Below, in pieces: positions 5,872 through 26,392 of a stretch of 47,374 nt of DNA; position 1 is the first letter of the stretch; every line of letters begins with the position of its first letter. Below the pieces are notes generated by a model that did no database searches, was not told where the DNA came from, and saw only the letters and a program-made list of their open reading frames with translations. A program made the position numbers and the translations under genes. Source of the stretch: an uncultured Porphyromonadaceae bacterium. GTDB lineage: Bacteria > Bacteroidota > Bacteroidia > Bacteroidales > Muribaculaceae. The DNA lies in NCBI GenBank assembly GCA_947177035.1, contig CAMWSS010000016.1, forward strand, positions 1 to 47,374. The letters are read 5' to 3'.

Positions 5872-7101
5872 TTATTTTTGAGAACCGAATTTGGCAGCTA
5901 AACCACCTATCTGTTCCGCAATGGATTTGTCTATTACTTTTGCATAGATTTTGGTAGTCCGTATGTCGGAGTGTCCAAGCATACGAGCTATAATCTCCAT
6001 CGATACGCCATTGGCAAGTGCAAGACAAGCAAATGAATGGCGGGCGATATGCATTGTGAGAGGCTTGGTGATGCCACATATACCGGCAATTTCGCCAAGA
6101 TACGAATTCATCCTTTGATTGGAAATAACCGGAAGGAGAACTCCTCGGGATTCACAAAGATGGTGTCCTTTATATTTATCAGCGATTTCACGTGCCGACT
6201 CCAGATATGGTATGCTGCACACGTTCTTCGTCTTCTGACGAGCTTTGTGAATCCAGTAGTTGCCATCATCGTCAACCGACACATGTTCAGGCTTCAGACC
6301 TTCGACATCTGAGAATGACAATCCGGTCAGCGCACAGAATACGAATATGTCGCGGACTACATTCAGACGTTCAAGGGTGAATGTCTTGTTCATTATTGTT
6401 GAAAGCTCCTTTTCGGTAAGGAATTGACGATTGGTCGCCTTAGCCTGAAATCGCATCCTTTGGAACGGATTAATCTCCATCCATTTGTTGTCAAGCGCGA
6501 GCGTTACGATTCTTTTCAGTATCTTGCAGTACTTGTTAGCGGTATTCTGTTCCTGCTTCTTATCAACGCGGAGAAAAAGATGAAAGTCGCGTACAAACGC
6601 ATTGTCTATAGATGAGAAAGGGATGTCGTCTGCTTTGTAACGCTTGCGGATAAACTCACCGAGATAACGTTCTGCTCTCTCGTTGCGTAACACGGTATTT
6701 AGCACCACGTCGCCAATCTCAAGACGCTGGCGATACTTCTTGTTGTCCTCCTTGAACACTTCGCAGAGCATTTTCGGTTTCTCAACCTTGCCGTTCCATT
6801 CATCAAGAATGGTCTTCGGATTGATTACCCTCTTCTCATTGATAAAGCACTGATGAATTTTAAGAAGCCTAGAGAAAGTGTCATCGAGATAGTCGTTGAG
6901 TTCAAGCGAGAGACGGTCACGCCCGATGGAACGCTGCTTCTTCTCATTCCACACCTTTGGGTTCACACCGCGTTTGAGGGACGCTTCAAGGAAACGGCCA
7001 TCGACGGTGACGCGCATATACACCGGCGCATCACCGTTTTTCAACAGCTTCTTCCTCTTTATGTAAAAGAGGATGCTGAAAGTCGATTTTCTTTGTTGCA
7101 T
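5872..7101 (-). CDS. Tyrosine recombinase/integrase, CTnDOT-like
   Basis: 409 residues from the ATG at 7101; the open frame runs further upstream, but 'MQQRKSTFSILFYIKRKKLL' matches the usual beginning of Bacteroidetes integrases. The N-terminal arm-binding part (10-60) and SAM-like core-binding domain (about 110-215) precede a complete catalytic domain: 'TGLSFSD' with Ser262 where Arg I is expected, Lys290 in 'ARQKTKN', H351-x2-R354 in 'HIARHSF', His377 in 'LGHSD' and Tyr386. Loss of Arg I to Ser is known for IntDOT, so this enzyme should be active. It could mobilise the left-hand element or invert the nearby capsule promoter; sequence does not decide. Confidence 0.93.
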   Translation of the reverse strand: MQQRKSTFSILFYIKRKKLLKNGDAPVYMRVTVDGRFLEASLKRGVNPKVWNEKKQRSIGRDRLSLELNDYLDDTFSRLLKIHQCFINEKRVINPKTILDEWNGKVEKPKMLCEVFKEDNKKYRQRLEIGDVVLNTVLRNERAERYLGEFIRKRYKADDIPFSSIDNAFVRDFHLFLRVDKKQEQNTANKYCKILKRIVTLALDNKWMEINPFQRMRFQAKATNRQFLTEKELSTIMNKTFTLERLNVVRDIFVFCALTGLSFSDVEGLKPEHVSVDDDGNYWIHKARQKTKNVCSIPYLESAREIADKYKGHHLCESRGVLLPVISNQRMNSYLGEIAGICGITKPLTMHIARHSFACLALANGVSMEIIARMLGHSDIRTTKIYAKVIDKSIAEQIGGLAAKFGSQK

Positions 7102-7287
7102 GTCAAATAAACATTTTTGATTTAACAATAGTTTTTTTGACAAGAAGAGAAAACTGCAGGCAATCAAAGATCAATCAGCGAATTAAGCCATGTTCGTTGG
7201 ACTTTTTGCATGTCAAAGTCAAGTCCAACGGATGCTCCAACGCGAAGTGCCTCGTTCTGCCGGATTTTGCGCAGGATGCTAAAAGCA

Positions 7288-7322: not shown

Positions 7323-7345
7323 CCGCGAATTGCCTTCGCTTGTTG

Positions 7346-7419
7346 TGGTCCCACTTGGGCTTGAACCAAGGACTCCCTGATTATGAGTCAGGTGCTCTAA
7401 CCAACTGAGCTATAGGACC
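7346..7419 (-). tRNA. tRNA with CAT anticodon, probably tRNA-Ile2 (lysidine type)
   Basis: A full 74-base cloverleaf reads on the minus strand: acceptor GGTCCTA/TGGGACC, D arm GCTC/GAGC, anticodon stem CCTGA/TCAGG with loop CTCATAA (anticodon CAT at 7385-7383), and T arm CTTGG/CCAAG with loop TTCAAGC. CCA is not encoded. The anticodon alone allows elongator Met or Ile2. The acceptor has C4-G69 and C5-G68, which are positive TilS determinants in E. coli tRNA-Ile2 and differ from elongator tRNA-Met, so Ile2 is favoured by inference. It may be the attachment site for the neighbouring element. Confidence 0.95.
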
Positions 7420-7595: not shown

Positions 7596-7612
7596 ATCTC
7601 TTATGGAGAGAT
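7596..7612 (+). repeat. Left inverted repeat of the capsule promoter switch
   Basis: ATCTCTTATGGAGAGAT is the exact reverse complement of the copy at 7767-7783. The site is itself an 11-bp dyad (CACAAATCTCT at 7591-7601, AGAGATTTGTG at 7607-7617) around a 5-base asymmetric centre TATGG, the layout of a tyrosine-recombinase crossover site. Confidence 0.85.
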
Positions 7613-7766
7613 TTGTGCTCAACACATAGCTTTCATTAGCACTGTTTTATAAGTTTATTTAGCCCTATATTTGCCAATAACGTATCGATTTTTCTTTTTT
7701 TACAAAATTATACCCTTAAGTTATGTATTGTTTCAGAGTTATTTTGTAACTTTGCGCACTGAAAGT
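7613..7766 (+). promoter_or_regulatory. Invertible promoter segment (ON orientation)
   Basis: This 154-bp AT-rich segment lies between perfect 17-bp inverted repeats and carries a -7 element TAACTTTG at 7747-7754, pointing at upxY. A weak -33 candidate, TATG at 7722-7725 with 21-base spacing, precedes it. Inversion would turn the promoter towards the tRNA and integrase and silence the capsule operon. Invertible promoters upstream of upxY genes are established in Bacteroides capsule loci; that this one inverts is inferred from structure. Confidence 0.82.
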
Positions 7767-7783
7767 ATCTCTCCATAAGAGAT
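7767..7783 (-). repeat. Right inverted repeat of the capsule promoter switch
   Basis: ATCTCTCCATAAGAGAT, exact reverse complement of 7596-7612, lying 12 bases after the -7 element. Its own dyad is TATCTCT/AGAGATA (7766-7772, 7778-7784) around CCATA. Confidence 0.85.
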
Positions 7784-7956
7784 AGTGACTTCTTCGTCGC
7801 CTGAGAAGTTTATTTTTGGGTGACACAACCACAGGGAAAGTTCCTGTATAGGCTCTTCCTTGAGATCCGAAGCTTGTTGCAGACGGACGGTTGTGATTGA
7901 TGCGCGACCAACGGCCCCGGCCCGACGTCGTGCAAGAGGTTGAAATGTAGGCTGAG
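7784..7956 (+). promoter_or_regulatory. Long structured 5' leader of the capsule operon
   Basis: From the predicted start near 7761 to the upxY ATG are almost 200 untranslated bases. Visible pairings include ACTTCT/AGAAGT (7788-7793, 7804-7809), CAGG...CCTG and the long-range CACAACC/GGTTGTG (7824-7830, 7889-7895). In B. fragilis, UpxY proteins act on the 5' leader of their own operon to prevent early termination; this leader is the obvious target. No gene is seen here. Confidence 0.5.
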
Positions 7957-8499
7957 ATGAGCGATAGGCAAACAACACACGACAATAGTCTTGAATGGTT
8001 CGCAATAAAAACCAGACAAGACTTCAGGGCAGAGGCAGCCCTGAGATCATTATGTGAAGAGGTCTACTTTCCCAAAGAATACAAGAATATAGCCGGCAAG
8101 AAATCTATTGTCCGCGCGATTATTCCTCATGTGCTTTTTATCCGCACAACGCGGGCGAATGCGCTGGCACTTGAAGCCAATGCACGTCGAAATGAGCAGA
8201 ATTCGATTCCGTTCTGGATTTATCGATACCCTAACGACAATCGAATACAGCCCATCTCTCCACGCGCTATTGAGTTGCTCCGCCTGCTCACGGCCGATGA
8301 CACGACTCGGTGCGAAATATTCTGCAAGAAGGATTTCAAGGAGAATGAACATGTCAGAATCACCGGCGGCTTCTATAAAGGTCTGGAAGGGTATGTGCAG
8401 CGTGTGCATAAGAACAAGCACGTCATTGTGAAGATTGAGGGCATCTGCCTGGTTATGTTGCCATTTATTCATCCTGATCTTCTTGAACCAATCGAATAA
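7957..8499 (+). CDS. upxY: UpxY-family transcription antiterminator (NusG paralogue)
   Basis: 180 residues. The N-terminal NGN domain opens with 'EWFAIKTRQDFRAEAALRSL', the usual NusG/RfaH start, and continues with 'IPHVLFIRT'. The C-terminal KOW domain is seen at about 128-160 ('HVRITGGFYKGLEGYVQRV'). UpxY proteins are operon-specific antiterminators that let RNA polymerase pass the long leader and transcribe the whole capsule operon. It is the first gene after the invertible promoter and is followed directly by glycosyltransferases; no UpxZ inhibitor gene is found next to it, unlike the B. fragilis arrangement. The family call is secure; the specific name is by position and similarity. Confidence 0.9.
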   Translation: MSDRQTTHDNSLEWFAIKTRQDFRAEAALRSLCEEVYFPKEYKNIAGKKSIVRAIIPHVLFIRTTRANALALEANARRNEQNSIPFWIYRYPNDNRIQPISPRAIELLRLLTADDTTRCEIFCKKDFKENEHVRITGGFYKGLEGYVQRVHKNKHVIVKIEGICLVMLPFIHPDLLEPIE

Positions 8500-8525
8500 T
8501 ATTCATTTACGGCATCGTGCCAGAT

Positions 8526-9401
8526 ATGCTAATCACTGTTTTCACGCCGACTTATAATCGGGCAGAAACTCTCAGGCGAACATTCGAGAGTCTTTGTGCG
8601 CAATCTTTCCAGGATTTTGAATGGCTGGTTGTTGATGATGGATCAACCGACCACACATCAGAACAGATTGCTGAGTTTAAAAAATGTGCACAATTTCCAA
8701 TCGAATATCATCTGAAAGAGAACGGCGGCAAGCACACAGCATATAATTCCGCTCTAACGTTAGCTAAAGGTAGGCTGTTTTTTACTGTTGATTCCGATGA
8801 CTGGCTACCCGAACACAGCCTTGAGCTTATTAGCCAAAAAGCGGATGAGTTACTCAGCGACAGCAGGTTAGGCGGCATTGTCGCATTGAAAGAGCTTCCG
8901 GATGGCAAGATAATCAGCAGGAGTTATCCCAAAAATCTCCATAGGTCAACTCTTCAGGATTTGGAACGGGCCGGACTTGGAGGTGAGCGATCTTTAGTGT
9001 TCAAAACCGCGGTTGCCGCACAATATCCATTTCCTGTCATTTGTGGAGAGCGGTTTATGACTGAATGTGTGGTCTACGACAAAATTGCAATGGCATACGA
9101 GTTTTTGACAAGCAACGATGTGTTGACTACATGCGAATATCAGGAATGTGGTTTAAGCAGCAATCCGCGAAAGTTGATGGCTCTTAATCCTGGAGGATAC
9201 AAGATATACTTCCGCAATAGGATTGACCAGGCTTCCGGCATGAAAGAGCGTCTGAATTATATCGTGCGCTATCTTATTTTCAAGCGTCTGACATCGCCCA
9301 AGAAACAGGTGGACGATTATCATGGCCGGTGGAATTTTATTTGCCGGCTGTTATCTCCAGCCGGGATATTAGCCGCCCAAAGTTACAAAAATTTGAGTTG
9401 A
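8526..9401 (+). CDS. GT2 family glycosyltransferase
   Basis: 291 residues from the ATG at 8526 (a GTG at 8517 would add three residues). GT-A fold signature: 'VFTPTYNRAETLRRTFESL' at the start, 'VVDDGSTDHT' for nucleotide binding and 'FTVDSDDWL' containing the metal-binding DxD-like motif. The acceptor-binding C-terminus is soluble and ends with basic helices. It probably adds one sugar to the lipid-linked capsule repeat at the inner membrane face. The stop overlaps the start of the polymerase gene by one base (TGATG). Donor and acceptor are unknown. Confidence 0.92.
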   Translation: MLITVFTPTYNRAETLRRTFESLCAQSFQDFEWLVVDDGSTDHTSEQIAEFKKCAQFPIEYHLKENGGKHTAYNSALTLAKGRLFFTVDSDDWLPEHSLELISQKADELLSDSRLGGIVALKELPDGKIISRSYPKNLHRSTLQDLERAGLGGERSLVFKTAVAAQYPFPVICGERFMTECVVYDKIAMAYEFLTSNDVLTTCEYQECGLSSNPRKLMALNPGGYKIYFRNRIDQASGMKERLNYIVRYLIFKRLTSPKKQVDDYHGRWNFICRLLSPAGILAAQSYKNLS

Positions 9402-10501
9402 TGGGAGAGCTGCGAACAATAATAGTCATAATCCTTTTCTGGATCTTATCTTTCGTCGAGCCTTCCGGTTGGTCCATCATGCTGGATTTGCCTATAAAGG
9501 CCAACTGGATGATCGCGGCAATGGCCCTATTGCTTTACTACAAACATGCTGAGACACGTCCTGAAATATCAAAAAAGCTGTTTTGGGGTGTAATCATTTC
9601 ATTTATCGTCATTCCATATTTATATGCCGACAGTTTTGAAGGCGCGTCTTATCTGGTTGCCTTTCTAACTGTTTATATCATTTCCACCGGAAGCATAACC
9701 CCACGAACAATCCGCTTGACAGGGTTGTCAATTGCGGCAATGGGGCTGGTAGTCCTGTATATATACGCCACCGGAACAATGCTGAGTGGATGGAATGATA
9801 ATGCAATCGCAATGGTCGGGTTGTTCAGTTTCATCTATTTTTCTATTTTCCTTATTGAGAAGAAAGGAAAGCGTTCGTTCTGGATCTGGAACACAGTTAC
9901 CTTGGCTTATATACTGCTTTTGTTCGGAACAGATTGTCGTTCAGGCATGCTGTTCACTATGATCACGGTTGCAGGTATCATTTTCAGTTCTCTGGCAAAA
10001 CGACTAATTGAAAACAGCCGATATGAGATGCTTATTCTCAACCTTCCGCTGATCATTGCGTTCATAGTTATCGCCATATCTTCGTCTTCATATTATGATG
10101 AGCTGGAGATGTGGAGCATACAAAAGTTTGACAAGACTATATTCAACGGCAGAAACGGGCTGTGGGAGTATGCCTTGACTCTCCTTGAACAGAGCAGTTA
10201 CCTTGGGACCGGTAAGTTTGAGATCAATTATCATAACAGCGGAGTGGCGGCAATATCCGTATTCGGCATATTAGGCTACATCTGTTGGATCGGCTACTTT
10301 TCACGCTCTTTGAAAAATTTGAAAAAATTCATGCGTGATGATATCGTTTTTGGATCTATACTTGCTTTTTCATTAATTTTTATGCAGCAGGCTCTTGATC
10401 TCGGATTTATTTCTCCCGTTCCGAATCTATTGCCGTATATTATCCTCGGCGTCGGCATAGGGCGGGTAAACCAACTGAAAAAAGAAGAATGCAATCCATG
10501 A
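9401..10501 (+). CDS. wzy: Wzy-like capsule/O-antigen polymerase
   Basis: 366 residues from the ATG at 9401, chosen because it overlaps the previous stop; the open frame extends back to 9329 inside the glycosyltransferase. About ten hydrophobic helices are spaced along the length. The larger loop contains 'FNGRNGLWEYALTLL', the Arg-bearing pattern typical of Wzy/O-antigen ligase family loops, followed by 'YHNSGVAAISVFGILG'. Wzy joins flipped repeat units in the periplasmic leaflet. No competing polymerase candidate is present in the operon, supporting the call, though WaaL-type ligases share these features. Confidence 0.82.
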   Translation: MGELRTIIVIILFWILSFVEPSGWSIMLDLPIKANWMIAAMALLLYYKHAETRPEISKKLFWGVIISFIVIPYLYADSFEGASYLVAFLTVYIISTGSITPRTIRLTGLSIAAMGLVVLYIYATGTMLSGWNDNAIAMVGLFSFIYFSIFLIEKKGKRSFWIWNTVTLAYILLLFGTDCRSGMLFTMITVAGIIFSSLAKRLIENSRYEMLILNLPLIIAFIVIAISSSSYYDELEMWSIQKFDKTIFNGRNGLWEYALTLLEQSSYLGTGKFEINYHNSGVAAISVFGILGYICWIGYFSRSLKNLKKFMRDDIVFGSILAFSLIFMQQALDLGFISPVPNLLPYIILGVGIGRVNQLKKEECNP

Positions 10502-11508
10502 AGGTAAGTGTGATTATTCCCATCTACAATACCGGAGAATATCTGCGTCCGTGCATTGAATCTATCACAAATCAGACTCATCGTGATTTACAGATCATAA
10601 TGATTGACGATGGTTCAAAACCCGATACTGCAGAGTTGTGTGACCGTATTGCCTTGACCGACGAGAGAATAACAGTGATACACAAACCGAACGAAGGAGT
10701 AAGCATCGCACGCAATGTCGGGCTGAGTCAAGCCAGCGGGGAAATTGTGTGTTTTGTAGATTCAGACGACACGATCGCTCCGAATATGATCAAGGCTCTG
10801 GTAGATGCTCTGGTGAATTCCGACGCTCAAATCGCCATGTGTGACGCTGTGACAATCTCACCCGGCAGATCTGATGAGCCGGACACAATACCTGATTATG
10901 ATTCATCATGCGTCATAAACACGAAAGGGCTTGCCCCCGCCACGCTGACCCGGCTGGCCGGGTCAGCGTGTCGATGCGCCTACCGGCGCATCGACACGCT
11001 TGTCACTTCAGGCGCCAAGTTCCCCGAAGGGGTCAAATTCTCAGAAGACAGGATATTCAACATTATCGCCATGGGAGCGGCCTCCAGAATCGCATATCTG
11101 AAACAACCGTTATACAACCGACTCATTCGCGAAGGCAGCGCATGCTTCCGCTATTATCCTGACATGGTGCAACAGATTGTCAAAATGCGAGAAGTCCTGA
11201 TCAAAGCAGTGCGCAACAGCTGGGGCAACGATTACGTCCAGGCCTATGAGCAACAGATTGCCGGTCATATCCTCTATTCCATCACAAATTTCACAGCGTC
11301 AAAAGCTAACGAGCCAGCACATCAACGATTAATAAAACTCAGAAAATTATGTGCCGACAATTCAATACGCGATTGCCTTGAAAAGGCCAATTGTTCAGGT
11401 TTGCGCGGCAAGTTAATTCTCGGCAAACATTACTTCTTGTTATTTGCAATCGGATGGTTCACAAATATTTATCACAGACTATGCAGAAAAGGTCAGTACC
11501 AGGCGTAA
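10498..11508 (+). CDS. GT2 family glycosyltransferase
   Basis: 336 residues from the ATG at 10498, which overlaps the wzy stop (ATGA); an in-frame ATG at 10489 is the alternative. Signatures: 'VSVIIPIYNTGEYLRPCIES', 'MIDDGSKPDT', 'VSIARNVGL' and 'CFVDSDDTI', followed by the usual 'KFSEDRIF' acidic motif. This is the EpsH/WcaA type common in capsules. Odd: the segment encoding 'ATLTRLAGSACRCAYRRIDT' is built of two adjoining near-perfect palindromes in the DNA (10941-11000), GC-rich against the AT-rich surroundings. The reading frame and motif order remain intact. Confidence 0.92.
   Translation: MKVSVIIPIYNTGEYLRPCIESITNQTHRDLQIIMIDDGSKPDTAELCDRIALTDERITVIHKPNEGVSIARNVGLSQASGEIVCFVDSDDTIAPNMIKALVDALVNSDAQIAMCDAVTISPGRSDEPDTIPDYDSSCVINTKGLAPATLTRLAGSACRCAYRRIDTLVTSGAKFPEGVKFSEDRIFNIIAMGAASRIAYLKQPLYNRLIREGSACFRYYPDMVQQIVKMREVLIKAVRNSWGNDYVQAYEQQIAGHILYSITNFTASKANEPAHQRLIKLRKLCADNSIRDCLEKANCSGLRGKLILGKHYFLLFAIGWFTNIYHRLCRKGQYQA
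10941..11000. repeat. Two abutting palindromes inside a glycosyltransferase gene
   Basis: Hairpin 1: CACGCTGACCCGG (10941-10953) pairs with CCGGGTCAGCGTG (10958-10970). Hairpin 2: AGCGTGTCGATGCGCC (10965-10980) pairs with GGCGCATCGACACGCT (10985-11000), loop TACC. The arms share 10965-10970, so the two structures compete. All 13 and all 16 pairs are perfect. Confidence 0.9.
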
Positions 11509-12503
11509 GCGTCGTGATGCCGGCATATAATGCCGCAAAATACATTAAGGAAGCCATTGACAGCATTTTGGCTCAAACCTACCGCGATTTTGAATTCATT
11601 ATCGTTAATGACGGATCGACCGATAATACCAAAGAAATAATTCTCAGCTATTCCGATCCACGAATTGTATATATCGAAAATGAGCAGAATTCCGGCATCT
11701 GCGTAACGCTTAACAAAGGTCTTGACGCTGCCAAAGGGCGATATATCGTCCGCATGGATTCAGATGACATAGCTCTGCCCCAACGCCTGGAAGTCCAGGT
11801 CCGATATATGGATGCCAATCCTGACGTCGGAGTTGCAGGAAGTCTGGTCGAACGTTTCTATGACAACAATGCTCTCAATCACGATTTCCCTCCATCAGAA
11901 ACAGATTTTTATCAATGTCAAGCCAGTCTTCTATTTTCAACATGCGTTGCACACCCTGCAACTATAATCAGGAAATCTATTCTTCTCAAATATAATTTGA
12001 AGTATGATGACTATTTCCGTGGAATGGAAGACTATCATTTATGGTGGAAATTATCACGTCACACATTTATCACCAATATTCCTCAGGTTCTTCTGAAATA
12101 TAGAATCCATAAAAATCAAGTAACCCAGATTCCATTAACTGAAGAATTCATACACCGACAAAAAGTATTTATATCGCAAAGATTAACTGATTTAGGCATT
12201 AATCCGTCGCCTCAAGATGTTGAAGCAATATTGCTATATGAGATTTCTACATCATCTTTTGATGACAGGACAATGAACACACTGATTCAATGTTTGCATA
12301 CTATTCTAAATCAGATAAAATCAAACAGAAAATATTACAAAGCACAACAATTAGTCGCAGGTAAAGCAATTTCTTATAGCCATGATTTATCTGTCACAAA
12401 TCTGAAAAGATCAAATCTATATTATATGTGGCGAGCATATCGCATGTCATGTATGCCCTTTTCATGGTTTATAAAACGGTTATATCATAATTTTAAACAT
12501 TAA
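11481..12503 (+). CDS. GT2 family glycosyltransferase
   Basis: 340 residues from the ATG at 11481; the open frame reaches 11391, but that would overlap the previous gene by over 100 bases, and the GT2 domain starts just after 11481 ('VSVVMPAYNAAKYIKEAIDS'). Further signatures are 'IIVNDGSTDNT', 'NSGICVTLNKGLDAAKG' and 'VRMDSDDIALP', plus 'GMEDYHLWWKLSRH', the ED motif of the acceptor-side base. It overlaps the previous gene by 28 bases. The C-terminal 80 residues are rich in Lys/Asn/Tyr. Sugar specificity unknown. Confidence 0.92.
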   Translation: MQKRSVPGVSVVMPAYNAAKYIKEAIDSILAQTYRDFEFIIVNDGSTDNTKEIILSYSDPRIVYIENEQNSGICVTLNKGLDAAKGRYIVRMDSDDIALPQRLEVQVRYMDANPDVGVAGSLVERFYDNNALNHDFPPSETDFYQCQASLLFSTCVAHPATIIRKSILLKYNLKYDDYFRGMEDYHLWWKLSRHTFITNIPQVLLKYRIHKNQVTQIPLTEEFIHRQKVFISQRLTDLGINPSPQDVEAILLYEISTSSFDDRTMNTLIQCLHTILNQIKSNRKYYKAQQLVAGKAISYSHDLSVTNLKRSNLYYMWRAYRMSCMPFSWFIKRLYHNFKH

Positions 12504-12510
12504 TCACGTC

Positions 12511-13473
12511 ATGGATATATCCGTAATTGTCGCCATATACAATGTTGAGAAATATCTAAACGACTGTATTGAGAGCCTTATTAATCAAGACTTTTCAACA
12601 GCTGAATTTATATTGGTCAATGACGGAAGTTCCGACAAGTCATCTCAGATTTGCGACAAGGCCCAATTATCCGATTCCCGAATAAAAGTCATCAATAAAA
12701 ACAACGGCGGATTATCAGACGCAAGAAATGCAGGGCTCGAAGTTGCGACCGGCAAGTTTATAATGTTTATAGATGGCGATGATGTTCTTGATCGAGGAGC
12801 ATTAAGTATATTGTTCCGAATCGCGCAGCAAACAGATTCAGACTTGGTTCAGTATGGGTATCGGGAAACATCATCAGCGGATCTGCATGCACATGCAACA
12901 TTCAATGGCAAATATGAATACGTGACTGATCGTCACGACATGTACATGCGGCTATATCAATTAGGTGGTATAGCGGCATCAGGATGTACAAAGCTAATAA
13001 AGCGACGGGCAATAAAAAATTTAAAGTTTGCCTTTGGCAAACTTCATGAAGATGAATTCTTCACCACAGAACTTCTTGCGTCAGTAAGATCAGTAACATA
13101 TATTACTGATTTTACGCCATATCAATATATTATACGTGCGGGCAGCATTATTACGTGTGGTTTTAATCCAAAGCGGGTATACGATCTCAGCGCTATGTAT
13201 GAAAAGCGGATCAAAAAACTCAATGATCTCGGGTTCAGCGATCTGGCAGATGCATTTCAAACACGGTATTTCTCTAATTTATATATTCAATACCACAAAT
13301 CCTGTTTCGCAAACAATAAGGAGTGTACTCGTTTTACCTGTAAAAAACTCATCGGACTGGGCTCAGCGCACTCTGATGGTCTTAACTATGAAATGCGCGT
13401 AGCAAAAGTTTGGCCCAGGCTCATGCTTCCATTTTTGTATAGGCTCCGTTCTGCACTCCACAAAAGACTTTGA
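12511..13473 (+). CDS. GT2 family glycosyltransferase
   Basis: 320 residues. GT-A motifs: 'ISVIVAIYNVEKYLNDCIES', 'ILVNDGSSDKS', 'NNGGLSDARNAGLEVATG', 'MFIDGDDVLD' and 'KLHEDEFFTTELL'. This is the capsule/exopolysaccharide type with an ED-x-F motif near residue 190. Seven bases separate it from the previous gene. Immediately downstream lies a broken acyltransferase, so this gene and the capsule-synthesis protein at 13806 once flanked an acetylation gene. Confidence 0.92.
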   Translation: MDISVIVAIYNVEKYLNDCIESLINQDFSTAEFILVNDGSSDKSSQICDKAQLSDSRIKVINKNNGGLSDARNAGLEVATGKFIMFIDGDDVLDRGALSILFRIAQQTDSDLVQYGYRETSSADLHAHATFNGKYEYVTDRHDMYMRLYQLGGIAASGCTKLIKRRAIKNLKFAFGKLHEDEFFTTELLASVRSVTYITDFTPYQYIIRAGSIITCGFNPKRVYDLSAMYEKRIKKLNDLGFSDLADAFQTRYFSNLYIQYHKSCFANNKECTRFTCKKLIGLGSAHSDGLNYEMRVAKVWPRLMLPFLYRLRSALHKRL

Positions 13474-13498
13474 CTAACCCTATATTTTACACCACTTC

Positions 13499-13809
13499 AT
13501 GACAAACAGAATTCGCTTTATTGATGGACTGCGAGGATTCACGATGTTACTTGTAGTCTATCATCATCTTTGCTGTTTAGCTTTCCCGACCAGCCTCGAG
13601 AAAGCCTCTGTTTTTAACAATATCGGGATGACAGCGTCCTTACTTTTTTTGTTCTCAATAATATAAACAAGACAAAGTTTTCGTATAGTAAAGCGGCGCA
13701 TATACTTGAATTTATCGGCAAATCTACTTTTGAAATTTTTCTGCTTCACTATTTTTTCATAAAGTTGCTTTCCATCATGCCTTACCGAGATACTATTTTA
13801 AATACATGA
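13499..13809 (+). pseudogene. Acyltransferase-3 (OafA-like) pseudogene, gutted
   Basis: From the ATG at 13499 the frame reads 'MTNRIRFIDGLRGFTMLLVV', the diagnostic N-terminus of membrane acyltransferase-3 enzymes, continuing through 'YHH' (catalytic His region) to a TAA near 13666. In the next frame, 13640-13809 reads 'YSKAAHILEFIGKSTFEIFL' followed by LHYFF, the classic C-terminal helix. About 250 central residues are missing and the two halves are out of frame. The C-terminal TGA still overlaps the next ATG (ATGA at 13806), so the intact gene was once a coupled operon member that probably O-acetylated the polysaccharide. Confidence 0.82.
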
Positions 13810-14789
13810 CTGTCATTATCAGAAAATTTGCACATTTTTGCCAGCGCCTATTCTCACAAATAGCGCATCTTCCGAAATATGTAAATAATTTCGGGATAAA
13901 AGTAGCTTTATACATTATCGTAGATCGCTTATTTCCTCCAGGACGCAGCAAAAGATATCAAAAAGCAGTATACCAATACCTTCATTCTGAATTCAGTGAT
14001 ATTGTAAATGAAGGATACAACGAAGACTATAATAAGACCGGCAACACACAGACAGATGAATCTGTCAGAACAATTTGGGTCTGTTGGTTTCAAGGAGAAG
14101 AAAATATGCCGGAATTAGTACGTATGTGCTATAAAAATCTCCAGAACAAAATAGCCGGCTCTGAGATAAATTTAATACTTCTCACTTACCAGAATATAGA
14201 TCAATATGTAGAAATACCTAATTACATTAAAGAAAAATATCATAATGGTATAATATCAAACGCCCACTATTCTGATATACTACGAGTCAAGCTTCTGCGA
14301 AAATATGGCGGATGCTGGATGGATGCTACAATATTTGCGACAGATTACATTCCTGATGATCTGTTTGAAAAGCAATTCCACACTTTAAAAATGCATCCAG
14401 AGTTATGCCCTTCTGAACCCTGCCTCGGACTTTGGAGCTTTTTTTTCCTTGCAGGACAAAAAGGGTTTGCATTATTCAATATCATTGACGATTGCTTAGA
14501 TCGATATTGGCGCAAGCACACTGAAGCTATTGATTACATTATGACAGATTACATAATGTTGGCGGCATACAGGAACAATCCTGAAGTCAGAGATGTCATG
14601 GACTCTGTACCATACAACAACGAAAGGCTCTGGCTGTTGTGGAACAATCTTGAAAATCCGTTTGACAACAGGCTGTATCAGGAAATATGGAGCAATGGAC
14701 AGTTTTATAAACTCTCATATCAAAAGATATTAAATAAAGAAGTCAACGGCAGAGAAACTTTCTATGGATATCTTACATCTCACCACTAA
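13806..14789 (+). CDS. Capsular polysaccharide synthesis protein (Caps_synth, GT32-like)
   Basis: 327 residues of the Caps_synth type: 'TIWVCWFQGEENMPELVRMC' (about 90-110) and 'ISNAHYSDILRVKLLRKYGG' followed by CWMDATI, where the Asp-containing motif replaces the GT32 DxD. These enzymes are related to GT32 and transfer sugars in capsule synthesis. The first 60 residues are basic and partly hydrophobic and may lie on the membrane. Its ATG overlaps the stop of the acyltransferase remnant and its end overlaps the next gene by 26 bases. Donor unknown. Confidence 0.85.
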   Translation: MTVIIRKFAHFCQRLFSQIAHLPKYVNNFGIKVALYIIVDRLFPPGRSKRYQKAVYQYLHSEFSDIVNEGYNEDYNKTGNTQTDESVRTIWVCWFQGEENMPELVRMCYKNLQNKIAGSEINLILLTYQNIDQYVEIPNYIKEKYHNGIISNAHYSDILRVKLLRKYGGCWMDATIFATDYIPDDLFEKQFHTLKMHPELCPSEPCLGLWSFFFLAGQKGFALFNIIDDCLDRYWRKHTEAIDYIMTDYIMLAAYRNNPEVRDVMDSVPYNNERLWLLWNNLENPFDNRLYQEIWSNGQFYKLSYQKILNKEVNGRETFYGYLTSHH

Positions 14790-15750
14790 TCCTGAATTAT
14801 CAATATCCGTAATCGTTCCAGCATATAACTGCGGCGAATTTTTACACAATTGTGTACTATCCATATTAACGTCTATTGATCAAAATTCAGAAGTCCTGAT
14901 AATCAACGATGGATCAACCGACAATACATTAGATGTCGCACATAACATGTCGATCAGAGATTCAAGAGTCCGGATTATATCACAGGCCAATCAAGGTGTG
15001 AGTGCAGCCCGCAATACAGGCATAGAGCATGCCCGCGGCAAATACATCGCATTCGTTGACTCTGATGATTGGATTGACGCACCTTTTACGATTTACAAGT
15101 CCATGCTGGACGCCCTAACAATTAACAATGCTGAGATTGTTATCGCCGGTTATACGACATCCAAAACAGAATGCAATCTGAAGTTGGATAATCAGGTCTA
15201 TCGACGAGGTGTCAATCACGATTTTGAGAACCTGATCTTACTAAAATCTATCGGCAAGCCATATGGCAAACTGATCAATCGTGATTTTTTAATCAGAAAC
15301 AATATATTTTTTCCAGTGGGTATGAAACATCAGGAAGATGCTGTATTTCTATACAAAATACTGACTTATGCCTCAACTGTTGCGACAATAAATGATTCCA
15401 CATATCATTATGTCTTACCTGAAAAGGGCAAGATTTATTCTTTTAAACTTCAGGATGAATTGAGAGGATATGATGAAATGTGTAGCGCGATTGATTCCTT
15501 GATCAACACTTCGGGAATGGATACAGACAACGCCAGAAATCGTCTGGAAAAACGGAAGACCAACATGGCCCTCCACGTTTATAACTCAATACAGCATGAA
15601 CCGGTAAGAAAGAATCGAATTGAAGCCTACAGTAGAGTAACGTGGGATCAGGCCTTATCTCATCTTGACATTCATCCGATAAAGAAATTGTTTTTGCATA
15701 TGCGACTCTTTAAAATCGTGGACTTTATTTCCAAGCCTCGTTTATTTTAA
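14764..15750 (+). CDS. GT2 family glycosyltransferase
   Basis: 328 residues. Motifs: 'LSISVIVPAYNCGEFLHNCV', 'LIINDGSTDNTLD', 'NQGVSAARNTGIEHARG' and 'AFVDSDDWID', then 'HQEDAVFLYK' as the acidic acceptor-side motif. The start at 14764 overlaps the previous gene by 26 bases. It is followed by 114 bases of AT-rich spacer (15751-15864) in which I see no gene or clear hairpin; that is the longest gene-free stretch within this part of the operon. Confidence 0.92.
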   Translation: MDILHLTTNPELSISVIVPAYNCGEFLHNCVLSILTSIDQNSEVLIINDGSTDNTLDVAHNMSIRDSRVRIISQANQGVSAARNTGIEHARGKYIAFVDSDDWIDAPFTIYKSMLDALTINNAEIVIAGYTTSKTECNLKLDNQVYRRGVNHDFENLILLKSIGKPYGKLINRDFLIRNNIFFPVGMKHQEDAVFLYKILTYASTVATINDSTYHYVLPEKGKIYSFKLQDELRGYDEMCSAIDSLINTSGMDTDNARNRLEKRKTNMALHVYNSIQHEPVRKNRIEAYSRVTWDQALSHLDIHPIKKLFLHMRLFKIVDFISKPRLF

Positions 15751-15864
15751 ACAAACAGCCAACCACGCTGCCGTGCAATCAGTACAATATTGGCGCATTG
15801 CAAAATATTAACTAATCAAAAAATTTAAACGCCACCGATTTTCAATTTGCAATAATATCTATAC

Positions 15865-17436
15865 ATGGCGCAAGAAACATCTCGAATTAAAAATTCATTA
15901 TTTAACATAACCACTGGCATTGGATATCAGATCTTGGTTATGATAATAAGTTTTGCCATTCGCACAATATTCATTTATTGTTTAGGCAAGACTTATCTTG
16001 GCATAAATGGTCTATTTTCAAACATACTATCAATATTATCTTTTGCCGAACTTGGTATTGGACAGGCCATAATATTCAGTCTATACAAACCTATAGCAGA
16101 AGGCGATGAAGAACGAATGTTATCTCTGATGACATTGTTTGGAAAAGTCTATCGTATCATTTTCTGCATTGTTTTAGGATTAGGGCTGTGTCTAATGCCT
16201 TTTTTACCGGATATAATAAATGACTATGACAGCATCCCAGATTTAAATATCATCTATTTAATGTATGTGTTCAGCTCGGCTTCAACCTATCTGTTTGCAT
16301 ATAAAAGTATCTTTTTAACAGCATGTCAGAAAAATTTCATAGCCACTATTTACAATGCCGCCTTTTATATCGCGACCTCAATTCTAAAGGTCATAACTCT
16401 TTTGATTTTTAAAGATTTTATTCTTTACCTATTTGTTGAAATATCATTCGTGCTTATCCAGAACATTTTTGTAGCACATAAAGTCAATAAGATTTTTCCT
16501 TTTTTAAAAAGAAAGAACGTCCAGCGTTTAAAGAAGGAGGATTTAGCCAAAATAAAAAAAGACGTATATGCCCTTGTTCTTTACAAACTCGGAGCAATTT
16601 CACTTAACTCCACTGACAATATACTGATATCAAAATTCGTAGGCATTATTGCAGTTGGCATATATTCTAACTATGTTATAATTATATCGTCTGTTTCCGG
16701 CTTTTTGGGAACTATATTTGCGAATCTGACAGCAAGCATCGGACACTTGAATGCAACCGAAAGCGATGATCGCAAATATTTTATGTTCAGAGTCATCAAC
16801 TTTTCTACTTTTTGGCTATATAGCTATGCTGCGATTTGTGTATATATCCTGATCGGTCCATTCATTGGGAATTGTTGGCTTGGCGATAGTTTTTTATTAG
16901 ATAACAGCACAGTATTGATAATATGTTTGAATATATATATTGTTGCCATGCTGTATGCACCAAGCCAGTTTCGTCAAACTATGGGGTTATTTGTACAAGG
17001 TAAATACCGGCCTCTGATTTCCGCTATATTAAATATCATTATATCAATTATTTTGGGCAAGTATTATGGATTGGCCGGTGTGTTGTGGGGCACCGCAATC
17101 ACACGTCTGACAACCAATGGATGGTATGATCCTTTAATCGTTTATAGAAAGATTGGCATCAGTCCCTGGAAGTATTATTGGGATTATACTTCAAAATTTG
17201 CATTGATGCTTATTGTCGGAGCTTTCTGCTCTTGGCTTAGCTCTTTTTTCCAGATTAACAATATTTTCAAGTGGATTCTCGCTGGAGTACTGTTATCTGT
17301 GATCATAAATTTATTATATGTAGCAATTTATCGAAAAACTGAAGAATACAAATATTTAAAAAATGTTGTTCTGACAATATTTTCAAAACTTAGGAGCAAA
17401 GTATCCAGGAACTTAACCCCCAAAACGCACCAATGA
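15865..17436 (+). CDS. wzx: Wzx-type polysaccharide flippase
   Basis: 523 residues with 12-14 hydrophobic helices, beginning 'SLFNITTGIGYQILVMIISF' and containing 'YLGINGLFSNILSILSFAEL', the characteristic start of the polysaccharide-biosynthesis branch of the MOP superfamily. A short basic cytoplasmic tail ends the protein. It would flip the undecaprenyl-linked repeat unit across the inner membrane before Wzy joins units. It is followed with a 4-base overlap by the glycerophosphotransferase. It is the only flippase in the locus. Confidence 0.92.
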   Translation: MAQETSRIKNSLFNITTGIGYQILVMIISFAIRTIFIYCLGKTYLGINGLFSNILSILSFAELGIGQAIIFSLYKPIAEGDEERMLSLMTLFGKVYRIIFCIVLGLGLCLMPFLPDIINDYDSIPDLNIIYLMYVFSSASTYLFAYKSIFLTACQKNFIATIYNAAFYIATSILKVITLLIFKDFILYLFVEISFVLIQNIFVAHKVNKIFPFLKRKNVQRLKKEDLAKIKKDVYALVLYKLGAISLNSTDNILISKFVGIIAVGIYSNYVIIISSVSGFLGTIFANLTASIGHLNATESDDRKYFMFRVINFSTFWLYSYAAICVYILIGPFIGNCWLGDSFLLDNSTVLIICLNIYIVAMLYAPSQFRQTMGLFVQGKYRPLISAILNIIISIILGKYYGLAGVLWGTAITRLTTNGWYDPLIVYRKIGISPWKYYWDYTSKFALMLIVGAFCSWLSSFFQINNIFKWILAGVLLSVIINLLYVAIYRKTEEYKYLKNVVLTIFSKLRSKVSRNLTPKTHQ

Positions 17437-18593
17437 GTCTAATCGAAACGGTCAAAAAATTTCGCTTAAGCGCCTACATAAACTTTTATCGGTGTTTACC
17501 CGTCAAGCGAAACAAAATAATCATGTGGGCCAACAGTTTCAAACACTATGGCTGCAGTCCCAAATATATTACAGAATATCTGCTGAAAAAAAAGCCCGGG
17601 AAATATGATATCGTATGGGTATTCGAAAATGGAGTCAAAATCCCGACTGATTTTCCCAATGGAGTCAGAATTGTAAGATACTTTTCAACGTCCTATCTAA
17701 AAGAACTTCATACGGCCCATTACATCATTTGCAATACTCGCATTGGCAAATCATATATGTGGCGCAAGAGGGCTCAACAAAAGTATATTCAAACATGGCA
17801 TAGTTCCATCCGATTAAAAAAAATTGAAAAGGATGCCTTTGATAATTTGCCAAATGAATACATCGAGGAAGCCAAGGCCGATTCCAAGCGCACTGATCTG
17901 ATTATATCAGGCTGCGACTTCAGCACTCGAATATTCCAGAATTCATTCTGGTATGACGGCCCGGTTCTAAATACAGGAACTCCTCGTTGCGATATATTCT
18001 TTTCTGGCAAGCAGGAAGAAGCCAAACAGAAAGTTTACGGATTGTTGAATATCGACAAACGTAAACATATCATTCTATATGCTCCTACATTCCGCAACGA
18101 TAAGTCAGCCAACCTTCATGGAATAGACTTCAAACAGATAAAAACTGTGCTTAAACATAAGACAGGCACGGAATGGGAAGTTCTATACCGATTCCATCCC
18201 AACATCATCAATTCACAGCAACAGACAGATGACGGCATCGATGTGTCTCGATATCCCGACATGCAGGAATTGTTGGCTGCAGCCCATATCTTGATTACAG
18301 ATTACTCTTCATGTATGTTTGATATGGCCATCGCTCATAAGCCGTGTGTCCTTTTCGCGCCTGATATCAATACATATCTGAAAACGGAACGAGGTCTTTA
18401 TTTCGACCCCGAAATTCTTCCGTTTCCTATAGCCTCTGACAATAACCGCCTTATACAGATTTTATCTGAATTCAACAAGGAATCATACACTTCAGACATT
18501 GATAAATTTCTAAAATCGATTGGTTCCTATGAAGACGGCAATGCTTGCCATAAAATAATTAAATATCTCGAGACTAATTTTGAACACAAATGA
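17433..18593 (+). CDS. CDP-glycerol:glycerophosphotransferase family protein
   Basis: 386 residues of the TagB/TagF (Glyphos_transf) family. Visible motifs: His123 in 'TWHSS', 'YAPTFR' at 216-221, 'RFHPN' at 253-257 and 'ITDYSS' at 288-293; the two His and the DYSS loop bind the CDP-glycerol pyrophosphate in TagF. It lacks a long N-terminal extension. Such enzymes can transfer glycerol-phosphate or, in Gram-negative capsules, other polyol phosphates. The glycerol-3-phosphate cytidylyltransferase-like gene at 21509 would supply CDP-glycerol, so glycerol-phosphate decoration of the glycan is the likely role. Confidence 0.88.
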   Translation: MSLIETVKKFRLSAYINFYRCLPVKRNKIIMWANSFKHYGCSPKYITEYLLKKKPGKYDIVWVFENGVKIPTDFPNGVRIVRYFSTSYLKELHTAHYIICNTRIGKSYMWRKRAQQKYIQTWHSSIRLKKIEKDAFDNLPNEYIEEAKADSKRTDLIISGCDFSTRIFQNSFWYDGPVLNTGTPRCDIFFSGKQEEAKQKVYGLLNIDKRKHIILYAPTFRNDKSANLHGIDFKQIKTVLKHKTGTEWEVLYRFHPNIINSQQQTDDGIDVSRYPDMQELLAAAHILITDYSSCMFDMAIAHKPCVLFAPDINTYLKTERGLYFDPEILPFPIASDNNRLIQILSEFNKESYTSDIDKFLKSIGSYEDGNACHKIIKYLETNFEHK

Positions 18594-19372
18594 TACCAAA
18601 AATTATTCACTATGTCTGGTTCGGTCATGGAAAAATGACTCCTCTGATGCTTAAATGCATCAAAAGCTGGAAAAAGCATTGTCCTGACTATCAAATAATG
18701 GAATGGAATGAAAGCAATTTTGACATCAATTCTACTCTGTGGACAAAACAAGCCTATGAAGCAAAAAAATATGCTTTTGTATCTGACTATGTACGCCTCT
18801 ATGCTCTAAAAAAATATGGTGGAATATACATGGACACCGACCAAGAGCTAATCAAGCCGCTTGACCCTTTTCTTGAAAAAGATATGTTTTTAGGATTCAT
18901 GGACACTCAGATTAACACAGGATTAATCGGAGCAAGTTCAGATTCCAATGCACTTTCAGAATGTTTTGAATACTACCGCGACCGGGAATTTATCGTAGAC
19001 GAAAAATATGATCAGACGCCAAATACTGCATGGATGACAAAAATTCTTGTATCTCACGGTCTGATCATAAAAGATGAATACCAGAAGATAAACGACGTCG
19101 ATATATATCCCAGAACATATTTTTGTCCAACCAACTGCGATTCGATACATACATTTCATAGTCCGGAAACAGTTGCAATCCATCATTGGGCAATGACCTG
19201 GCGATCTGAAAAAGCAAAAAAGTCATTCGCACGCGCCCGCAGACACCAACGCACCTGGTATAAAACATATATCTATTTAAGGTATTTGCCAAACAGAATC
19301 ATACGCAAGGTGTTTGGCGATGCAGCTATTGACAGATTGAAATCGAAACTTCTTAAGCCTTCTTCCAAATGA
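18590..19372 (+). CDS. GT32 family glycosyltransferase
   Basis: 260 residues. Starts 'IPKIIHYVWFG', the hallmark of GT32/OCH1-like enzymes, then 'CIKSWKKHCPDYQIMEWNES' and 'YAFVSDYVRLYALKKYGG' leading to IYMDTD, the DxD metal site. 'AIHHWAMTW' near residue 200 is the conserved C-terminal His-containing motif. Overlaps its neighbours by 4 bases on each side. A basic C-terminal tail may sit on the membrane. Sugar specificity unknown; family members use UDP-Gal, UDP-Glc or GDP-Man. Confidence 0.92.
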   Translation: MIPKIIHYVWFGHGKMTPLMLKCIKSWKKHCPDYQIMEWNESNFDINSTLWTKQAYEAKKYAFVSDYVRLYALKKYGGIYMDTDQELIKPLDPFLEKDMFLGFMDTQINTGLIGASSDSNALSECFEYYRDREFIVDEKYDQTPNTAWMTKILVSHGLIIKDEYQKINDVDIYPRTYFCPTNCDSIHTFHSPETVAIHHWAMTWRSEKAKKSFARARRHQRTWYKTYIYLRYLPNRIIRKVFGDAAIDRLKSKLLKPSSK

Positions 19373-19947
19373 ACATCAGAGCAATTCCTGGGGTCGCTGT
19401 TTATCTGCTAAGCGGTCAGTGTATTAAGGACGATATTGATGTGGATGTTGACCGATACCTAAAATGGGCCGTAAATGCCCCATCAACCAAAGCGCGTCGG
19501 CTGGCATTTTGTCTTGTCAGAAAAAAAGAATTCCGGAGCGTATTTGCATATAGAATAAGACACCACAAATTTTTATCAAAAATTATCAACATTTTTACGC
19601 CTCGGATCAAAACTATCGAGATCGGCAACGGAGGCATCGGCCCAGGACTATATATTTCACACTATAACTGCGTTATATTCTGCAAAGAAGCCGGCAAAAA
19701 CCTTAGAGTTGGCCCCGGAGTTGTGATTGGCAGAAACGGAACTGAATTTCCTATCATTGGCAATAATGTTTTCGTTGCGGCAAACTCGGTTGTCATCGGT
19801 GATATTAAAATTGGAAATAACGTAATCATTGGAGCCGGTTCTGTTGTAACAAAAGATTTACCTGACAATGGAGTATATTTTGGGAATCCGGCAAAACTAT
19901 ACAAACCGTTATTAACGGACTCCATATACATGGAACAGATAATGTAA
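19369..19947 (+). CDS. Serine-acetyltransferase-like hexapeptide acyltransferase
   Basis: 192 residues. The N-terminal half is helical; the second half is a left-handed beta-helix of hexapeptide repeats ('IGNGGIGPGLYISHYNCVIF', 'IIGNNVFVAANSVVIGDIKI', 'NNVIIGAGSVVTKDLPDNGV'), ending 'YFGNPAKLYK' as in CysE/WbbJ-like enzymes. His in 'ISHYN' fits the catalytic position. In a capsule operon, O- or N-acetylation of a sugar is more likely than cysteine synthesis. Four-base overlap with the upstream GT32. Confidence 0.85.
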   Translation: MNIRAIPGVAVYLLSGQCIKDDIDVDVDRYLKWAVNAPSTKARRLAFCLVRKKEFRSVFAYRIRHHKFLSKIINIFTPRIKTIEIGNGGIGPGLYISHYNCVIFCKEAGKNLRVGPGVVIGRNGTEFPIIGNNVFVAANSVVIGDIKIGNNVIIGAGSVVTKDLPDNGVYFGNPAKLYKPLLTDSIYMEQIM

Positions 19948-19968
19948 TTTCCTTGGAATAAAGATTTT

Positions 19969-20514
19969 ATGAAAAAGTGCATTACTGCTATAATAGTCCT
20001 GATTATTAAATTGTTTTATAATCTTGTTGCCAAGAGACTGCCGTCATCCTATCTTCCCGGCTATCATTGGACCCGCAAAGTGCGTGGATATTGTGGCCGT
20101 TTTTTATTGGATAAAGCTGGAAAAAACATAAATATCGAACCGTTTGTCGACTTTGATTACGGAATGGTCTCATTAGGCGACAATTCTTCGTTTGGCTCAC
20201 ACTCAAAGGTCTCAGGTTGTTTTGTCGGTAATAACGTTATGATAGGATCGCATTTCACTGTTATTGCCAGAGACCATTGTATCGACAGGATTGATATACC
20301 AATGATTCAACAAGGGTTCACAAAGATCAGACCTATCATCATTGACGATGATGTGTGGATTGGCGATAACGTCACTATTCTGAAAGGAGTCCATGTACAT
20401 AGCCATAGCGTTATTGCCGCAGGTGCTGTGGTAACAAAAGATGTGCCGGAATATGCCATTGTGGGAGGTGTGCCGGCAAAGATCATCAGATTCAGAAACA
20501 AAAAGGTTGATTGA
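19969..20514 (+). CDS. WbbJ-like hexapeptide O-acetyltransferase
   Basis: 181 residues. A hydrophobic first helix (about 4-18) precedes hexapeptide turns: 'VDFDYGMVSLGDNSSFGSHS', 'VGNNVMIGSHFTVIARDHCI' (His as catalytic base) and 'DDVWIGDNVTILKGVHVHSH', ending in 'IVGGVPAKIIRF', the classic maltose/galactoside acetyltransferase tail. Likely acetylates a sugar of the repeat unit using acetyl-CoA. It is one of three acyltransferases of this fold in the locus. Spacing to the upstream gene is 21 bases. Confidence 0.88.
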   Translation: MKKCITAIIVLIIKLFYNLVAKRLPSSYLPGYHWTRKVRGYCGRFLLDKAGKNINIEPFVDFDYGMVSLGDNSSFGSHSKVSGCFVGNNVMIGSHFTVIARDHCIDRIDIPMIQQGFTKIRPIIIDDDVWIGDNVTILKGVHVHSHSVIAAGAVVTKDVPEYAIVGGVPAKIIRFRNKKVD

Positions 20515-20528
20515 CATTCTTTTTAATT

Positions 20529-21512: not shown

Positions 21513-21919
21513 TCATAGGCTATACCACCGGCGTATACGACATGTTTCACGTCGGGCATCTCAACATTCTGAAACGGGCCAAAGAGCAGTGCGATTATCT
21601 GATAGTCGGGGTCTCAACCGACGAACTGGTGGAACATGACAAGCACAAGCATCCCATCATCCCATTTGCTGACAGATGTCGGATCGTGGAAGCGATCCGA
21701 TACGTTGACGAAGTAGTGCCCCAGATCGACAAAGACAAACTTGCGGCTTATCATCGTCTGCCCAGAAAGTTCCACAAAATGTTTGTCGGCAGTGACTGGC
21801 AAGGCACTCCTGCTTGGAAACTTTTTGAAAAACAATTCTCGCCACTCGGAGTGGAAATCGTGTATCTCCCACACACCGACGGAATCTCATCGTCAATATT
21901 GAGAGAAAAAATCAATTGA
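21509..21919 (+). CDS. tagD: Glycerol-3-phosphate cytidylyltransferase-like protein
   Basis: 136 residues, close to the 125-140 usual for TagD. 'GYTTGVYDMFHVGHLNILKR' carries the HxGH nucleotidyltransferase motif (H14, H17); 'VGVSTDEL' and 'FVGSDWQGT' are family landmarks; the C-terminal 'GISSSILREKI' replaces the usual ISTT-type signature with a Ser-rich version. It would make CDP-glycerol from CTP and glycerol-3-phosphate for the glycerophosphotransferase at 17433. Ethanolamine-phosphate cytidylyltransferase-like use cannot be excluded. Downstream 21920-21992 shows no feature. Confidence 0.85.
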   Translation: MIIGYTTGVYDMFHVGHLNILKRAKEQCDYLIVGVSTDELVEHDKHKHPIIPFADRCRIVEAIRYVDEVVPQIDKDKLAAYHRLPRKFHKMFVGSDWQGTPAWKLFEKQFSPLGVEIVYLPHTDGISSSILREKIN

Positions 21920-22013
21920 CATAATACAGATATACGCACGTCGCACAAATTATAACACATTATTGCCGCGACAGCATTAATTCTAACTTACCGTGATTAA
22001 GCCATTGATTAAC

Positions 22014-22016
22014 TGA
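22014..22016 (+). other. Suspected nonsense codon (TGA) in acetyltransferase N-terminus
   Basis: In-frame TGA separates GTG-initiated 'VIKPLIN' (21993) from the family-like N-terminal continuation. A TGG Trp there would restore an uninterrupted frame of about 185 codons. Confidence 0.5.
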
Positions 22017-22073
22017 GCCAAAAGGCTTATTTTTCGTCTGCGGGCAGACTATACGACCGAACAGCTTGTTAAA

Positions 22074-22550: not shown

Positions 22551-22560
22551 ACAACTCTGA

Positions 22561-25234: not shown

Positions 25235-25240
25235 TTAAAC

Positions 25241-26385: not shown

Positions 26386-26392
26386 CAACATT

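Follow-up and report, generated by a model that had tools for sequence, protein, structure and literature searches.

A putative invertible promoter ahead of a capsule operon in a Muribaculaceae genome, and a likely tyrosine recombinase partner encoded elsewhere

Results and Discussion

The capsule locus

The stretch of DNA analysed here (the window; 47,374 nt) is positions 1 to 47,374 of contig CAMWSS010000016.1 from an uncultured bacterium of the Muribaculaceae, a major group of the mouse gut. It carries a tRNA-linked integrase gene followed by a capsule operon. The features relevant here are the following.

5872..7167, minus strand: tRNA-linked integrase; PF00589 match above cut-off; judged not to be the invertase
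7345..7419, minus strand: tRNA-Met(CAT), in the path of the promoter if flipped
7596..7612, plus strand: putative left recombination site, ATCTCT-TATGG-AGAGAT; the complete conserved site spans about 7590-7618
7613..7766, no strand: putative invertible segment, 154 bp
7747..7754, plus strand: -7 box TAACTTTG, 14 nt from the right site and pointing out through it (ON for upxY)
7767..7783, minus strand: putative right recombination site; inverted copy of the left arm, exact throughout and sharing its 5-bp spacer; the complete site spans about 7761-7789
7784..7956, plus strand: untranslated leader between switch and upxY-like gene, its role presumed from UpxY biology
7957..8499, plus strand: upxY-like (NusG-family) gene, which opens the capsule operon
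8517..29227, plus strand: capsule genes (glycosyltransferases, a sugar transferase and others; a subset of the ORFs was searched against Pfam)
29277..30509, plus strand: recombinase homologue that lacks the catalytic tyrosine; apparently closes the operon (ORF from 29187)

From the upxY-like gene to the last gene (7957-30509) there are 24 co-directional ORFs with gaps of -118 to 332 nt. The next ORF starts at 30712, 202 nt on and on the same strand, and codes for a glycogen debranching enzyme; the capsule operon thus probably ends with the gene at 29277-30509.

An earlier note on this DNA had named upxY as the target of the promoter. The target is confirmed, while the name has to be qualified: the score of 68.2 bits against NF033644 lies below the NCBIfam UpxY cut-off of 100, hence we consider the product a diverged UpxY-like protein. 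This family is nonetheless its best match, a KOW match (also below cut-off) was found, and the gene has the position of upxY as the first gene of the operon, behind a leader.

An inverted repeat flanks a promoter

The sequence ATCTCTTATGGAGAGAT at 7596-7612 recurs as its exact reverse complement at 7767-7783 (17 of 17 positions complementary), 154 nt away. Each arm is itself a dyad, ATCTCT-TATGG-AGAGAT. The perfect 17-bp repeat bracketing 154 bp and the asymmetric 5-base centre of its dyads had been described correctly in the earlier note, and so had the promoter element: TAACTTTG at 7747-7754, separated by 14 nt from CTCT in the right arm, is aimed at the upxY-like ORF. Inversion would aim it at the tRNA and the integrase, as was also claimed, both genes being on the minus strand; the tRNA-Met gene has a TAACTTTG of its own at 7445-7452 on that strand. 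Inverted dyad sites with matched asymmetric spacers that flank a promoter are the arrangement of a tyrosine-recombinase inverton.

Exact copies of the 17-bp repeat in the genome (2.30 Mb, 62 contigs) are confined to the two at 7596 and 7767. When the window was searched for 14-bp inverted matches at a distance of 60-500 bp, this pair and 4874/4986 (the latter within a local repeat) were returned, compared to one match in total from 20 mononucleotide shuffles. Given the shuffles and the absence of further exact genome copies, the pair is very unlikely to have arisen by chance. A match with two mismatches at 1980-1996 was considered as a further site and dismissed; it is single, lies within an ORF and is taken as a chance match. 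Short degenerate direct repeats of the CAACGT type were noticed among the island genes (4849-5024).

A class of sites with matched spacers

One-mismatch matches of the repeat are present in 19 of 397 genomes of the same family. Because these included further close inverted pairs, the rule CTCT-N5-AGAG was derived. The sites form a class, with ATCTCT/AGAGAT arms and a 5-bp spacer which varies between loci and is equal within a pair. The pair pattern (gap 157-187) is found in 149 of the 397 family genomes, including the genome under study, versus about 7 for a reversed-pattern control. At the genus level, 7 of 11 genomes (again including this one) have matched pairs, and 4 have none by the strict pattern. 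The spacer is equal on both sides in most of the family pairs listed. Noted exceptions are one unmatched pair (G175) and three pairs in direct orientation (G077:C4:150532, G120:C52:5450, and G190:C16:383884), where recombination would lead to excision and not to inversion.

From 72 distinct segments the consensus is roughly aT-n4-ATCTCT-N5-AGAGAT-n4-At (about 29 bp), in which CTCT, AGAG and the matched spacer were fixed by how the segments were picked. Spacers vary, with a preference for A as the last base (62 of the 72). Among segments found beside recombinase genes (see below), 25 of the 26 that could be called have a -7 box 13-18 nt from a site; the distance is 26 nt in L201.

The pattern TCTCT-N5-AGAGA returned three matched-spacer inverted pairs and four single matches from the genome itself (reversed-pattern control: 3). 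The three pairs are the following putative switches.

Switch 1, contig C16 (the window): spacer TATGG; capsule, ON
Switch 2, contig C5 (L100 6905, 6934, 7149): spacer TTATA; second capsule, OFF
Switch 3, contig C9 (L101 7180-7353): spacer TGGCA; lipoprotein operon, ON

On C5, the left site is doubled (copies 29 nt apart) and the promoter points away from the upxY-like gene. The C9 promoter faces an operon for a lipoprotein (assigned by eye), a DUF5683 protein and a BACON/laminin-G protein.

Outside the family, the raw pattern count is not above background (15 of 393 genomes compared to about 14 for the reversed control, in a set that includes 6 genomes of the family itself); matched spacers, seen by eye in 10 genomes, are the sole signal over background. 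Selection against equal spacers within a genome was considered and is unsupported, with 2 of 35 comparisons equal within genomes versus 71 of 2450 between genomes (71 listed segments from 50 genomes, after dropping the direct pairs of G077, G120 and G190, the G175 pair and the genome under study).

The recombinases linked to the sites

The genome (99.8% complete) has no match to the serine recombinase family PF00239, which is matched in 10 of 14 control genomes. The earlier statement that the site is not of the Mpi type holds, since no PF00239 recombinase was found in the genome and the published Mpi repeat, ARACGTTCGTN, is different; an Mpi-type serine invertase was rejected because the genome search returned none. 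Five proteins of the genome belong to PF00589, two of them XerC/XerD-like and 32% identical to each other. One gene on another contig became the candidate.

Contig C43, 724-1974: candidate invertase, tyrosine recombinase of 416 aa, open frame, aligned catalytic residues

On reading the alignment, R, K, R and Tyr of the C43 enzyme are aligned, and Y replaces the first H of HxxR. Its PF00589 score was 27.9 bits in one search and 26.2 bits in another (cut-off 27.1). Recombinases that adjoin the same site in two relatives (L010, L021) are 42-45% identical to the C43 enzyme and 23-25% to the window integrase. Homologues from the same genus with 66%, 60% and 53% identity lie 12-226 bp from matched pairs (spacers TTGAA, TAAAA and TGCTA, respectively).

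One might instead ascribe the inversion to the neighbouring integrase (5872-7167) and view the promoter as a switch local to the tRNA island. No recombinase lies nearer, the PF00589 match of the integrase is above cut-off, and a recombinase does adjoin a segment in 26 of 80 loci from relatives (the best 80 of at least 578). Its identity to the two site-linked enzymes (23-25%) and to the C43 enzyme (23%) is, however, far below that between C43 and the site-linked enzymes (42-66%), and it adjoins the 3' end of a tRNA gene, as island integrases do. A second copy of the tRNA 3' end, as an island end, was looked for in the window and is absent. Because the site-linked enzymes resemble C43 far more, the adjacent integrase is probably not the invertase; we regard this reading as highly improbable. 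The earlier proposal of a possibly new partner recombinase is upheld to the extent that the likely partner is the orphan C43 enzyme; the adjacent integrase does not qualify.

Still less credence is given to inversion by XerC/XerD or by another tyrosine recombinase of the genome (C62). Such proteins are present, but the similarity of the Xer-like ones to the L010 enzyme (37%) extends over only 49-56 residues, and C62 does not match the L010 and L021 enzymes at E 0.01.

When named genome contigs were scanned for recombinases, at least 578 relatives were obtained, of which the best 80 were kept. These are mostly from Muribaculaceae, Porphyromonadaceae, Bacteroides or Bacteroidales bins (L144 and L207 bear unrelated names). 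All five non-MAG records among these best 80 are from Muribaculaceae, two of them being Muribaculum and Paramuribaculum records, genera which we take to belong to this family. Within the best 80 loci, 26 have a total of 30 matched-spacer pairs, every one 3' of the recombinase (two pairs share a site in L214), and 16 other arm sequences used as control gave no matched pair in the same 80 loci. Two adjacent segments per recombinase occur in L143, L148, and L158.

The other 54 of these best 80 loci lack a full pair. In 13 of them at most 310 nt of contig remain 3' of the recombinase, and a dyad is present in 10 of these 13 stubs. With the stubs set aside, 41 of 67 recombinase loci are without a pair with these arms, which counts against a strict rule. 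Contig breaks were rejected as proof of flipping, being weak evidence: of the 80 contigs, 13 break off within 310 nt 3' of the gene and 8 within 300 nt 5' of it. In 29 loci taken from an order-wide search, C43 homologues of 47-57% identity adjoin related but altered dyads, or none; one locus has a matched pair within 420 nt, and another has a pair about 430 nt apart. Other arms occur beside such homologues outside the family.

The C43 gene itself has no inverted repeat of at least 13 bp at 60-700 bp spacing nearby. Its 84% identical orthologue in G096, which has the same neighbour gene, also lacks a local pair (about 360 nt of its 3' side are on the contig); the only strict-pattern pair of G096 is on another contig, at the orthologue of the C9 locus. 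G157 and G061 have two pairs each; one adjoins a C43 homologue, and no homologue was found on the contig of the other. As C43 lacks a local repeat and pairs are located elsewhere in G096, G157, and G061, the simplest reading is that one enzyme serves distant segments. The invertase would then act in trans and, judged from these sequence comparisons, is most likely the C43 enzyme. A 61% homologue (G110) has no local pair, a 50% homologue (G020) is accompanied by an unrelated repeat and not by a pair with these arms, and a pair is present in G147 (76% complete), where a search at E 1e-3 gave no homologue of C43. The unrelated repeat of G020 (C10; L057/L087), where the homologue is 48-50% identical to C43, is a 21-bp inverted repeat, CTTTATAATTGTGACTCCACC.

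Both orientations occur in relatives

Among 99 distinct segments compared for orientation, four comparisons were called inverted, one of them strong and three based on 40-51 aligned nt. In the strong case (L310 from G098 and L309 from G044), the flanks are 99.6% and 94.3% identical over 1 kb and the segment is reversed: its identity is 93.9% when inverted versus 61.3% when direct, and the promoter is at opposite ends. Both orientations thus occur in two relatives at another locus of the site class, this evidence being from that locus and not from segment 7613-7766.

The C9 segment and its orthologue in G096 have different spacers (TGGCA and TAGCC), each matched at both ends. A spacer that has changed and is yet equal at both ends was encountered in four orthologue comparisons (C9/G096, G044/G098, G090/G161, and G115/L153). 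Such concerted change is expected if crossovers pass through the spacer.

In 30 recombinase-side segments, the promoter is OFF in 24, ON in 2 and undecided in 4, where OFF means that it points toward the recombinase and the target gene is assumed to be on the other side. Another 30 segments, assigned by a neighbour rule, are ON in 9 cases, OFF in 8 and undecided in 13. In L035, the promoter points away from its upxY-like gene, the product of which is 46% identical to that of the window.

That the repeats are operator or terminator dyads rather than recombination sites could be argued from the arms, each of which is a short palindrome with an odd centre. This would leave the matched asymmetric spacers in inverted pairs, the linkage to recombinases and the natural inversion unexplained, and we see next to no chance that it is correct. 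The claim of an invertible capsule promoter is, in turn, supported by the conserved site class, the recombinase linkage and the natural inversion at the same type of site in relatives.

A proposed capsule switch operated in trans

We consider it likely, with a probability of roughly 0.85, that 7596-7783 is an ON/OFF switch which is flipped in trans by a tyrosine recombinase, most likely the C43 enzyme. The recombinase would bind the ATCTCT/AGAGAT arms of both dyad sites, and strand exchange would take place within the spacer of 5 bp; the inverted arrangement of the sites would cause the intervening 154 bp to flip. In the orientation seen, transcription from TAACTTTG would cross the right site and enter upxY and with it the capsule operon (ON). 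After flipping, the promoter would read toward the tRNA-Met and integrase genes (OFF), so that the capsule would be phase-variable. The C43 enzyme may also serve two further promoters, that of the second capsule on C5, which the assembly shows in the OFF state, and the lipoprotein promoter on C9 (ON). With a distinct spacer at each locus, sites would recombine preferentially with their partner at the same locus rather than with sites at other loci, which may insulate the loci from each other.

The segment might also have flipped once and now be locked ON in this strain. This would agree with the single state present in the assembly and with the location of the likely enzyme gene on another contig that lacks a local segment. 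Against it, both arms match exactly over all 17 bp, spacer included, and relatives suggest that it is recombination which keeps the spacers equal; moreover, the reading frame of the C43 enzyme is open and its catalytic residues align. We therefore think a locked segment unlikely and prefer an active switch.

A recombinase homologue without the catalytic tyrosine

The protein encoded at 29277-30509 has a SAM-like core-binding domain (5e-16), does not match PF00589 and is 34% identical to the C43 enzyme over C43 residues 134-337. It lacks both catalytic arginines and the tyrosine and is therefore not classed as an active recombinase. At E 1e-20, this protein was matched in 211 of 397 genomes; the majority of the matches listed are partial, as would be expected of active recombinases.

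Proteins taken to be of its own kind were collected from 11 loci in 10 other genomes; nine were matched over most of the protein, and those from G094 and G264 are partial. Ten of these loci and the window protein were aligned. A tyrosine aligned with the catalytic one is absent from all 11 rows, and, by reading, the first arginine is replaced in 7 and the second in 6 of the 11. Eight rows, including the window protein, form one clade with a support of 100/100.

Five loci were read at length (two in G117 and one each in G248, G161, and G090), and in all of them the tyrosine-less gene closes the co-directional run of a polysaccharide operon. It is followed by a neighbour on the opposite strand in four loci and by the contig end in one. 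Three loci reach the front of the operon, and all three open with an inverted-repeat segment and an upxY-like gene (the G248 segment has one altered arm base, and upxY of G117:C23 was recognised by eye). In the remaining two, the front is cut off by the limits of the sequence retrieved or by the contig end.

A tentative idea, which we consider possible though less probable than not, is that the operon encodes its own brake. The tyrosine-less protein, which keeps DNA-binding parts, would be made only when the operon is ON, would bind to CTCT-N5-AGAG sites and would block the active enzyme. It might lock its own switch ON or freeze rival switches, and the choice of capsule would then be maintained by two copies of one enzyme, one active and one dead, that compete with each other.

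Comparison with known systems

The comparisons below refer to those parts of the cited publications that were available to us. By these, the nearest described system is Tsr19 (BF2766) of Bacteroides fragilis, a single tyrosine recombinase that inverts a polysaccharide promoter, which is mostly OFF, and the promoter of a distant lipoprotein cluster; doubled repeats occur (PMC4747536, PMC3090145). Capsule and lipoprotein promoters as targets are common to both systems, and doubled repeats are also seen at C5. In our case, in contrast, the likely enzyme lacks a local segment and two capsule loci are among the likely targets.

Mpi is a serine recombinase with the repeat ARACGTTCGTN (PMC8375218) which acts in trans on invertible promoters upstream of upxY capsule operons (PMC4747536, PMC8375218, PMC3090145, PMC5903667). 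The switch described here resembles this system in having an invertible promoter ahead of an upxY-type capsule operon and in the proposed inversion in trans. It differs in the enzyme, as no serine recombinase was found in the genome, and in the repeat, which is of the CTCT-N5-AGAG type.

Invertons of gut Bacteroidales that consist of an invertase gene, one or more adjacent invertible promoters and then upxY or glycan genes have been reported (PMC8748976, PMC11892184), so the proximity of invertase and inverton is already known. Two adjacent segments per invertase are found there as well as in L143, L148, and L158. The accessible parts of these two papers contain no CTCT-N5-AGAG site, spacer analysis or tyrosine-less operon gene, and those of PMC5903667 and PMC10939037 contain nothing on the site. 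An integrase gene downstream of capsule clusters has been described for Parabacteroides distasonis, where upxY is discussed with respect to missing upxZ partners (PMC9409006). That integrase may or may not equal an invertase or the last gene of the window operon, and it might prefigure the tyrosine-less gene; the description, as far as available, is without a site, a spacer or the loss of catalytic residues. UpxZ proteins are capsule cross-repressors which act on UpxY proteins (PMC7315117). As products of a capsule operon that act on capsule choice, they may be functional analogues of the tyrosine-less protein, but they are encoded at the operon start and act on UpxY proteins, whereas the tyrosine-less gene is at the operon end.

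Among the papers listed by our literature searches, none is on DNA inversion in Muribaculaceae, and none is, by title, on tyrosine-less recombinases in phase variation. AGAGAT did not occur in the papers listed by a further search; the inverton survey from 2019 may print the site. The present analysis adds the likely partner enzyme, the site rule, a case of natural inversion between relatives and, at the operon end, the tyrosine-less gene. The rule of fixed arms and a free but matched spacer allows phase-variable surface loci to be catalogued across many genomes, and it allows loci to be paired with enzymes and the question to be asked whether loci are kept separate by their spacers. The tyrosine-less operon gene, should it indeed act on the switch, would represent a new way of holding a random choice.

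Further arrangements of upxY-like genes were noted in relatives. A gene product with 55-58% identity to that of the window occurs without such a switch within 1.5 kb (L050/L088; G157:C39). In L294 (2810-4228; G117:C12), the first gene at the switch is a fusion of a recombinase-like N-terminal part and a UpxY/NusG-like part (weak matches), which an ORF in L025 (1-1326; G222:C29) resembles by eye.
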